A DNA stretch of 39,676 bases from Pyrinomonadaceae bacterium. Its GTDB lineage: Bacteria > Acidobacteriota > Blastocatellia > Pyrinomonadales > Pyrinomonadaceae. The stretch covers positions 1 to 39,676 of the forward strand of contig JABDJV010000394.1 in assembly GCA_013003295.1 (NCBI GenBank), in the 5' to 3' direction. A program made the translations under genes and the position numbers. Positions 4,729 through 31,533 of the stretch are shown piece by piece (within the stretch, counting starts at the first letter, position 1; every line of letters starts with the position of its first letter). The notes below the pieces were generated by a model. It ran no database searches. It was given only the letters and a program-made list of their open reading frames with translations, and was not told where the DNA came from.

Positions 4729-4846
4729 AGTGTCTCTCCAGTTTTTCTTGGTTAACTTCTAAAATAAATACGCTATTTGATAAATATAGTTCGCAACGAC
4801 TCCGCTTTTCAATCCATAACGATTTTCACTGACAAATAATATTCCT

Positions 4847-4904
4847 GTCGCCGAAGGTGACAGATATTATAGCCCAGGGTAAGGCGATTAGCCGCGACCC
4901 TGGG
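4847..4904. repeat. Palindromic intergenic element family A, copy 2
   Basis: gtcgccgaaggtgac hairpin then agcccagggt..ccgcgaccctggg. Confidence 0.7.
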
Positions 4905-5163
4905 ATGGTTCGGAGTCCAAACCGACGCTGAAAGTGTCGAACCATTTAGTTGGGGTATGAGGTCAGAATGATTCGGAGTTATGTTCGACTCCTTCAGAGT
5001 CGGATCTATGTTTTTAACCTGTCCCTCATCTCAATCGCTTTACCCTTGGCTTGTATCGATTTTCTATATCGCTTTCAGCAAAGGGAGTTTGTCGATTGAC
5101 GCTACGGCACATGTTTAAATTGACCCTTGCGATTTGTGGGTATGAGGGAGCATACCTGGGCGG

Positions 5164-17627: not shown

Positions 17628-17651
17628 AACTGACCTCCAGTTTTACTAATC

Positions 17652-17840
17652 CGTCCCGTTCGGGACGTTTGATAATAGCCCCGTCATTTATGGTGGGGTT
17701 TCGCGTCATAGGGATTTTGAGTCCCATCGGGACTGCTGACCCAAGACCGAATTCAGCCGTCCCAATGTGACTGTTGATTCCTGTCAACGAAACCCAACGA
17801 TGAATCGGTGGGCTATTTTCACAAGGTCCCTTGCGGGACC
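17652..17840. repeat. Palindromic intergenic element family B (gtccc-n-gggac hairpins)
   Basis: cgtcccgttcgggacg (17652), gtcccatcgggac (17721), ggtcccttgcgggacc (17825), plus cccc..gggg stem 17679-17698 and cccaacgatgaatcggtggg 17793-17812. Confidence 0.75.
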
Positions 17841-17996
17841 AGAAAGTAATAAATCCTCGCGACTTCGTTTTATCCAAAATCTCCGGGCGCTCGCTGGAGG
17901 CCTTCTATTTCTTGCTCAAAAGTTTGCTTATTGAAACATCAGGCTCTTTTTTCTCGTTAAATTCTACTAAGTCGCGCGAAAATAAGGAGCCTTTTA

Positions 17997-30222: not shown

Positions 30223-30244
30223 AAATACGACCTTTTGCTTGCTA

Positions 30245-30336
30245 GCCCGCGTAGCGGGCTGCAGCGTTTAGCCCATAGCCTTGGCTATGGGGGAATGATC
30301 CAAAAATAGTTTGAGCAATCGTAGATTGCGACAGCA
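30245..30336 (-). repeat. REP-like element next to the tnpA 3' end (inverted relative to the 30797-31483 units)
   Basis: cccgcgtagcggg and cccatagccttggctatggg hairpins plus the 24-bp module. Confidence 0.75.
30313..30336. repeat. 24-bp direct repeat, left copy (gagcaatcgtagattgcgacagca)
   Basis: Identical to 31229-31252; contains gcaatc-gta-gattgc hairpin. Confidence 0.9.
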
Positions 30337-30338
30337 TC

Positions 30339-30785
30339 TTATTTCCAAAGGTATTTCAGATCGTAATCAATTTCGCTCTGCTTCAAAATACTCTCAAATT
30401 CTTGATCAAAATTCATCCTGCGGTGATGTTTTTCCTGATTTAGAATGTAACGTCGAACGATCTCCACTTGTGTTTGACCAACCGTAAATGCGCCATAACC
30501 GATCTGCCATTCAAATTTCGAATCGACGTTCTTTCGGGCCCATGTGGTAACGCTCGGTTTCAACTCGCGCATCAAGTTTGGAACAAGTAGTGTATGTTTC
30601 AATTTTACCAGCAAATGTACGTGATCCTCGATTCCGCCGATTTCAAGTGAAATACCGCCCAATCCGCGAATCGTGCCACCAATATATTCATAAATGGTGG
30701 GACAGAATCGTTTTGTAATAAATGGATACCGATCTTTTGTGGAAAAAACGATGTGATAGAGAAAATTTGTATATGTGTGAGGCAT
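30339..30785 (-). CDS. tnpA: IS200/IS605-like Y1 (HUH) transposase, REP-associated type
   Basis: HIVFSTKDR, GGIEDHVHLLVKL (HUH), WQIGYGAFTVGQTQVEIVRRYILNQEKHHR (catalytic Tyr), YDLKYLW C-terminus. Confidence 0.93.
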   Translation of the reverse strand: MPHTYTNFLYHIVFSTKDRYPFITKRFCPTIYEYIGGTIRGLGGISLEIGGIEDHVHLLVKLKHTLLVPNLMRELKPSVTTWARKNVDSKFEWQIGYGAFTVGQTQVEIVRRYILNQEKHHRRMNFDQEFESILKQSEIDYDLKYLWK

Positions 30786-30796
30786 ATTTTATTTCC

Positions 30797-31075
30797 TTCA
30801 CCCGTTAAACGGGTTCTGAGGTTTATTTTGTTCCGACCCACAGCGCCGCTGTGGGCTAGATGCTGACGCCAACTGACGTTGGCTCCGTCTTTCACCGGCT
30901 ACGCGGGCTCAGGTTTGTTTTTTGCGATTCAACCCACAGCGCCGCTGTGGGCTAAATGCTGACACTAACTGACTTTGGCTCCGTCTTTCGCCCGCTACGC
31001 GGGCTCCGAGATTCTTTTTTCGATTCAACCCACAGCTGCCGCTGTGGGCTAAATGCTGACACCAACATACGTTGG
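30797..31075 (+). repeat. Tandem palindromic repeat array, part 1 (about 96-bp units)
   Basis: Hairpin-1 starts at 30837, 30933 and 31029; hairpin-2 ccaactgacgttgg; hairpin-3 cccgctacgcggg. Confidence 0.9.
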
Positions 31076-31156
31076 TTTTGCTCTACGCTATGACAGTGCA
31101 CGCCATATTTCAGGCTAAATCGGGACGCGTATCGCCCTTTTGTTTTTCGACATCGG

Positions 31157-31252
31157 TCTTCGCTCGTGTAACGAGCGCCAGCATGTAGCCCATAGCGCCA
31201 GCTATGGGAACCGGCAAAAAGCCAAACGAGCAATCGTAGATTGCGACAGCAG
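31157..31252 (-). repeat. Inverted REP-like element inside the array
   Basis: cgctcgtgtaacgagcg, cccatagcgccagctatggg and gcaatcgtagattgc hairpins; reverse complement keeps the ctacatgctggcg linker. Confidence 0.8.
31229..31252. repeat. 24-bp direct repeat, right copy
   Basis: Identical to 30313-30336. Confidence 0.9.
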
Positions 31253-31300
31253 AGGTTTTTGGAGAATTTGCAGATCGAGGATTCATTCGCCTGGATTTCT

Positions 31301-31483
31301 TTCACCCGCTACGCGGGCTCTGAGATCCTTTTTCGATTCAACCCACAGCGTCGCTTTGGGCTAGATGCTGACGCCAACTGACGTTGGCTCCGTCTTTCGC
31401 CTGCTACGCGGGCTCCGGTTTTTTTGCGATTCAACCCACAGCGCCGCTGTGGGCTAAATGCTAACGCCAACTGACGTTGGCTC
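31301..31483 (+). repeat. Tandem palindromic repeat array, part 2
   Basis: Hairpin-1 starts at 31342 and 31435 (93-bp period). Confidence 0.9.
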
Positions 31484-31533
31484 GATATCAATTTAAACTA
31501 CGGGGCACTATCTCGACGAGATCTAAACCCATC

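Follow-up and report, generated by a model that had tools for sequence, protein, structure and literature searches.

The closest described relatives of the locus reported here are found among the Y1 transposases. In the survey of Quentin et al. (2018, PMC6006769), TnpAY1 subclass 1.2 is listed in Table 1 as "REP: no" and as occurring mainly in Cyanobacteria and Bacteroidetes, and the text describes it as without IS properties; no role has so far been recorded for it. The automatic REP search of that survey accepted only GTAG or GTGG feet and covered genomes that encode TnpAREP. The invariant W-Q pair of subclass 1.2 is shared with several REP-associated subclasses, and for the E. coli TnpAREP the same paper discusses W94, Q95 and R104 as belonging to the region that recognises the foot (PMC6006769). 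Work with the E. coli and group-3 TnpAREP proteins has shown that a single-stranded hairpin with its foot is recognised and that cleavage occurs at CT or CA, with the foot helping in the choice of site (PMC8266576). Di Nocera et al. (2013, PMC3733652) have also reported GTAG repeats from Planctomycetes and Verrucomicrobia, and from Acidobacteria Y1 genes that are flanked by TIRs; some such repeats may therefore already be catalogued without a link to the subclass-1.2 gene. In the literature searched, with most subscription journals and preprints lying outside it, no REP or REPIN was found assigned to subclass 1.2.

The window, that is, the whole stretch of 39,676 nt analysed here, is contig JABDJV010000394.1 from a Pyrinomonadaceae bacterium (GCA_013003295.1). 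We think it quite probable that its tnpA locus is REPtron-like, with a subclass-1.2 transposase at its core, and works like REP/RAYT without itself being a RAYT. The initial annotation had placed a Y1/HUH transposase lacking a TnpB partner beside tandem palindromic units, and all of its coordinates were borne out on re-reading of the sequence. The open reading frame matches Pfam PF01797 (Y1_Tnp, E 4.4e-21) and no tnpB adjoins it. The hairpin-1 (hp1) starts at 30837, 30933, 31029, 31342 and 31435 are real (start-to-start spacing 96, 96, 313 and 93), as are the inverted elements at 30245-30336 and 31157-31252, which have the same three-hairpin layout and an identical 24-mer, GAGCAATCGTAGATTGCGACAGCA, in common. 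The third of the three palindromes described is likewise part of the unit, a complete end reading hp2-linker-NTAG-hp1-spacer-hp3.

Each unit of about 95 bp is one such end, in which hp2 is followed by a linker of about 9 nt, the NTAG foot, hp1, about 25 nt and hp3. On the sense strand of tnpA, hp2 is GCCAACGTCAGTTGGC, the linker GTCAGCAT, the foot [T/C]TAG, hp1 CCCACAGCGGCGCTGTGGG and hp3 GCCCGCGTAGCGGGC, followed by a short linker. Elements upstream and downstream of tnpA are mutually inverted, with tandem ends upstream and an inverted copy downstream, and the post-hp3 linker of that downstream copy, GACAGCATCTTA, includes the stop codon of tnpA (TTA on the + strand, 30339-30341). Since the ends are inverted on the two sides of the gene, the larger structure is an inverted one, of which the three-hairpin unit makes up one end. 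The features are collected in Table 1, where R1 denotes a covariance model of hp2-linker-NTAG-hp1.

Table 1. Coordinates of the transposase gene and of the hairpin-bearing ends in the window
Feature	Position	Strand	R1 match	Parts and remarks
tnpA, assigned to TnpAY1 subclass 1.2, 148 aa	30339..30785	-		DHVH, W93Q94, catalytic Y113 in YILNQEKHH
3'-side end of tnpA unit, inverted	30244..30341	+	30239-30293	hp2 30244-30260; linker and TTAG foot 30261-30271; hp1 30272-30291; hp3 30315-30329; linker GACAGCATCTTA 30330-30341
5'-side end adjoining tnpA	30800..30883	-	30835-30887	hp3 30800-30814; hp1 30837-30855; CTAG foot/linker 30856-30867; hp2 30868-30883
Second tandem end	30896..30978	-	30931-30986	imperfect hp3 ~30896-30908; hp1 30933-30951; TTAG foot/linker 30952-30963; degraded hp2 to 30978
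Third tandem end	30990..31076	-	31027-31080, best in window	hp3 30990-31004; hp1 31029-31048; linker/foot 31049-31060; hp2 31061-31076
Solo end, opposite orientation	31161..31251	+	31156-31210	hp2 31161-31177; GTAG foot; hp1 31189-31208; hp3 31230-31244; linker GACAGCA
Fourth tandem end	31305..31388	-	31340-31392	hp3 31305-31317; imperfect hp1 31342-31360; CTAG foot/linker; hp2 31373-31388
Fifth tandem end	31399..31481	-	31433-31488	hp3 ~31399-31414; hp1 31435-31453; TTAG foot/linker 31454-31465; hp2 31466-31481
tnpA-less inverted pair (REPIN-like, diverged)	17646..17846		17646-17700 (+) and 17791-17846 (-)	linker TTTGATAATAG
Possible solo end, other subfamily	4841..4943	+	E 0.002	hp2 GTCGCCGAAGGTGAC, ATAG foot, long hp1, hp3-like CGACGCTGAAAGTGTCG

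The window protein carries all of the subclass 1.2 motifs, and the C-terminal tail that follows its Y motif is conserved. Its HUH histidines and tyrosine are invariant among the relatives, 107 of 111 of which have Y---Q--[HQ]H, and its catalytic residues are intact. It scores 59 bits with the NCBIfam IS200 model (cut-off 55) and gives no match to REP_Tyr_transpos (NF047646, cut-off 80 bits); the class-2 motif Y---NP is also absent. A domain search of the 148-aa protein returned only Y1_Tnp, with no HTH-type C-terminal domain as in TIRYT. Profile searches and an AlphaFold model (pLDDT 90) placed the IS608/ISDra2 TnpA first, with TnpAREP (4ER8) found at E 3e-5. Judged by its sequence, then, the protein is a TnpAY1 of subclass 1.2, a sister of the IS200 transposases and not a RAYT.

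The same kind of framing was seen around subclass-1.2 genes at other loci. The sample comprised 116 loci (paralogues of the window's own genome, relatives, and 80 loci from named genomes), the named-genome loci having been picked via FxWQxGY..F, so that conservation of WQ there is not independent evidence. Perfect hairpins with stems of at least 8 occurred at 2.76 per kb within 300 bp of the gene and at 0.34 per kb beyond 1.2 kb, an 8-fold difference. A TAG stood exactly at the 5' foot of 110 of the 187 near hairpins (up to 300 bp) as opposed to 11 of the 124 far ones, although the 110 stem from 52 loci and the counts are thus partly dependent. Perfect TAG-footed hairpins within 300 bp were present at those 52 of the 116 loci; about half had none, and several of the latter show imperfect ones on reading. 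The TAG-footed hairpins pointed inward in 94 of 110 cases, the first base of the foot being G in 50, T in 33, A in 22 and C in 5, and the element nearest to the start or stop of the gene usually lay at 35-70 bp.

Among 63 ends within 120 bp of a gene, hp2 was found in 59 and hp3 in 52, where shuffled sequence would give 4.8 and 8.5, and the linkers after hp2 and hp3 within one end were alike (permutation p 0.0005). Stem sequences vary freely with pairing kept, and hp2 showed two-sided changes in five of five pairs. In alignment A3 the pairing of hp1 and the TAG foot are perfect and present by selection, while hp2 lay outside the selection criteria; independent evidence for the foot is therefore the near/far count, and for the structure hp2 and hp3. 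The transposase and its elements also diverge together, protein distance following repeat distance with Mantel p 0.005 for the hp1 arm and 0.001 for the linker. The three-hairpin layout frames relatives of the window gene in at least six bacterial phyla, the phyla with flanking ends including Acidobacteriota, Planctomycetota, Verrucomicrobiota, Bacteroidota, Myxococcota, Thermodesulfobacteriota and others.

The window belongs to a draft genome of 501 contigs and 3.85 Mb that is 85% complete. The exact 95-mer unit is confined to this locus apart from one short partial match, which on its own would have pointed to a local repeat. What is dispersed is the linker plus the structure, with differing stem sequences. 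The linker GGGCTAAATGCTGAC had 41 matches in the genome with up to two mismatches, compared with 6 for a reversed control, which puts the repeats far beyond what chance would give. The GTCAGCAT[N]TAG linker family is peculiar to this genome, its counts in relatives lying near background. R1 found 47 elements on about 25 contigs, and the elements are almost all intergenic: none of the 25 tested lay inside an ORF of at least 200 aa, where 11.9 were expected. In a relative, G050, the corresponding count was 3 of 47, where 35 were expected.

Inverted pairs lacking tnpA were also detected with R1. In relatives, the paired elements lie 100-190 bp apart in the order hp2-hp1-hp3, a few to about 40 nt, then hp3'-hp1'-hp2', with both ends and no tnpA. 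Dispersed inverted pairs, as in REPINs, occur with the same ends in five relatives (G007, G031, G013, G022 and G052), and the window has its own, diverged pair. In another genome, G041, which holds at least 96 R1 elements, near-identical tandem elements with a period of about 67 bp were seen at G041:C106:38199-38388 (L236).

Pairs of this kind would also be expected under a different explanation, namely that the locus is an ordinary IS200-like IS with complex ends, in which the inverted repeats with their three hairpins would be the ends of the IS, and the pairs without tnpA, carrying the same ends, its MITEs. The score above the IS200 cut-off and the framing of the gene by inverted repeats at a near-fixed distance agree with this explanation. 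However, no identical or near-identical tnpA is present in the genome, multiple identical copies being what the initial annotation had named as the mark of an ordinary IS. There are 11 further matches, all at most 50% identical to the window protein, two of which adjoin on one contig and resemble a broken copy, and all six of the paralogues tested fall apart in the tree, scattered, with one having a Pyrinomonadaceae protein as its sister; several tree neighbours of the relatives are named Acidobacteriota. Elements are, in addition, several-fold commoner than the genes and often stand in tandem arrays. An ordinary multi-copy IS was rejected, the best paralogue being 50% identical, and the IS explanation as a whole is, in our view, unlikely. 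By eye, paralogues L002-L004, L006 and L008 have the same inverted layout with linkers of their own, and genomes of relatives hold up to seven copies each (E <= 1e-20). A more diverged Y1 gene of the window's own genome (G000:C222, L010) sits within a different array, ATAG-CCACCCCGTTTACGGGGTGG plus CGCTTCCAGCGTCC repeats.

The REPtron-like reading on subclass 1.2 also accounts for the distribution of the elements among 60 genomes scored with R1. With counts of 96 taken as lower bounds (at least 96), the median number of elements was 38.5 in genomes with a subclass-1.2 gene and 1 in those without, and the association of gene and element was clear (Fisher p 3e-5; Spearman 0.57). In genus g39, G050 and G054 have one tnpA each, with 60 and 64 elements, and G046 has no tnpA and 0 elements. 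Two intergenic sites are syntenic between the genomes: G050 carries arrays of about 1.1-1.2 kb there, as against 28 and 68 bp in G046. The first of these sites holds six elements in G050 and two in G054, the differences between these two genomes being those of copy number within shared arrays. G046 is only about 70-84% identical to G050 and G054 in aligned stretches, which makes the insertion boundary unreadable, and the difference between G050 and G046 may reflect gain or loss alike. At G050:C1:231991-242274 (L208/L209), about 8.5-9 kb of extra DNA lies between element arrays, where G054 has one array (L215) and G046 about 40 bp (L188); this stretch may be a segment gained or lost between repeats.

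The initial annotation had regarded the array in relatives lacking any related tnpA as evidence against its reading, and a few relatives do have elements of this kind: G016, G025 and G036 have 17-31 elements and no detectable subclass-1.2 gene. These may be orphan populations, or the genes may be missing from the drafts, G036 being 71% complete. In G001 and G011, tnpA is present and R1 found no matches.

Another candidate partner for the repeats exists in the genome itself, which encodes five class-2 RAYTs above the NF047646 cut-off (contigs C353, C250, C17, C199 and C130; L287-L290) beside its subclass-1.2 genes. Were these to mobilise the repeats, the subclass-1.2 gene would be a bystander, and the NTAG feet, often GTAG, could be cited in favour. 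Yet a linker scan at four of the five RAYT loci gave none in three and a single 2-mismatch match in the other, and the five RAYT contigs have no R1 match. Genomes with subclass 1.2 and no class-2 RAYT hold 4-94 elements, whereas those with a RAYT and no subclass 1.2 hold 0-3 (exact p 0.0013), a group in which G052 was placed although a more sensitive search finds a subclass-1.2 fragment in it. The number of elements across the 60 relatives thus tracks the subclass-1.2 genes, not true RAYTs, and it is with subclass-1.2 proteins that the repeat families co-diverge. RAYTs as the real partner of the repeats were rejected on the strength of the RAYT-locus linker scan together with the co-occurrence counts, and we find the bystander explanation highly improbable. 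NF047646 matches were also seen in long frames of 1252, 1255, 1324 and 1811 codons (G050:C1:1423681-1424013, G054:C1:1399266-1399598, G039:C75:22371-22703 and G046:C2:766216-766521, respectively); these may be large proteins into which a Y1 domain has been fused, or frames that are long by chance in GC-rich DNA.

That the hairpins act in RNA, as terminators or mRNA stabilisers, and were locally amplified by chance is hardly credible, for all their strength and intergenic position, given that an Rfam search of the window returned no match, that changes in the hp2 stem are nearly all Watson-Crick with few G-U, and that their inverted placement around tnpA and the dependence of element number on tnpA would be left unaccounted for.

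The concept put forward initially, a diverged, single-copy Y1 transposase tied to a dispersed family of palindromic repeats, is accordingly well backed by the tests of flanking, orientation, dispersal, co-divergence and co-occurrence, and repeats are not restricted to one locus; it is the RAYT label that has to be given up, the protein bearing the signature of subclass 1.2. For the window TnpA itself, both binding and cleavage, together with the place of the cut and mobilisation, are inferred. Once the region becomes single-stranded, TnpA would recognise hp1, folded and NTAG-footed, on one of the strands and, by analogy with the TnpAREP mechanism (PMC8266576), would cut at or near the linker via Y113. 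It could then move or duplicate non-autonomous ends, while the tnpA gene would stay low-copy and diverge along with its own repeat family. Recombination or slippage might expand the tandem ends into the 93-96-bp array. The tnpA-less copies of the ends (single, tandem or as inverted pairs) are scattered between genes.

The REP-like ends flanking these genes correct the published view that subclass 1.2 has no REP, and they link palindromic arrays in Acidobacteriota, Planctomycetota and Verrucomicrobiota to a partner gene. We lean towards the view that subclass 1.2 is a widespread further REPtron lineage, which took up the REP habit independently of class-2 RAYTs and directly from the IS200 branch. 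If this is true, a second, IS200-proximal REP lineage with a compact, patterned substrate (three hairpins, linker and NTAG) would make it testable by comparison how transposases become REP partners and whether this happened only once.

Among known systems, IS608 and ISDra2 of the IS200/IS605 group resemble the locus in their HUH/Y1 fold, catalytic residues and subterminal hairpins with a 5' tetranucleotide guide, but here there are no adjoining tnpB and no identical copies, the inverted ends have three hairpins and many elements lack tnpA. The TIRtron/TIRYT arrangement (PMC3733652) likewise has a Y1 transposase, flanking inverted repeats with possibly several palindromes, and copies elsewhere in the genome; TIRYTs, however, belong mostly to subclass 2.1, carry an HTH tail and often have GGGGWSAS repeats, whereas the window protein is without that tail and its ends are NTAG-footed. 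In the REPtron/RAYT systems (TnpAREP 2.2, 2.4 and 2.5, with REP/REPIN), as here, a single diverged tnpA goes with a repeat family of its own, whose hairpin has a GC base and is preceded on its 5' side by a tetranucleotide foot, and the repeats occur as inverted pairs, in tandem clusters and dispersed between genes. These systems differ in being class 2, not 1.2, and to some degree in their foot, GT[AG]G as compared with NTAG, of which GTAG is the commonest form; three hairpins per end and a conserved linker are found here. Finally, subclass 1.2 as published (PMC6006769) agrees in size (148 aa), in DH[IV]H, WQ and Y---Q--HH, in the conserved C-terminal tail and in low, diverged copy number; it was described as having no REP, whereas in the loci studied here the genes are flanked by REP-like ends with three hairpins, in the phyla named above.
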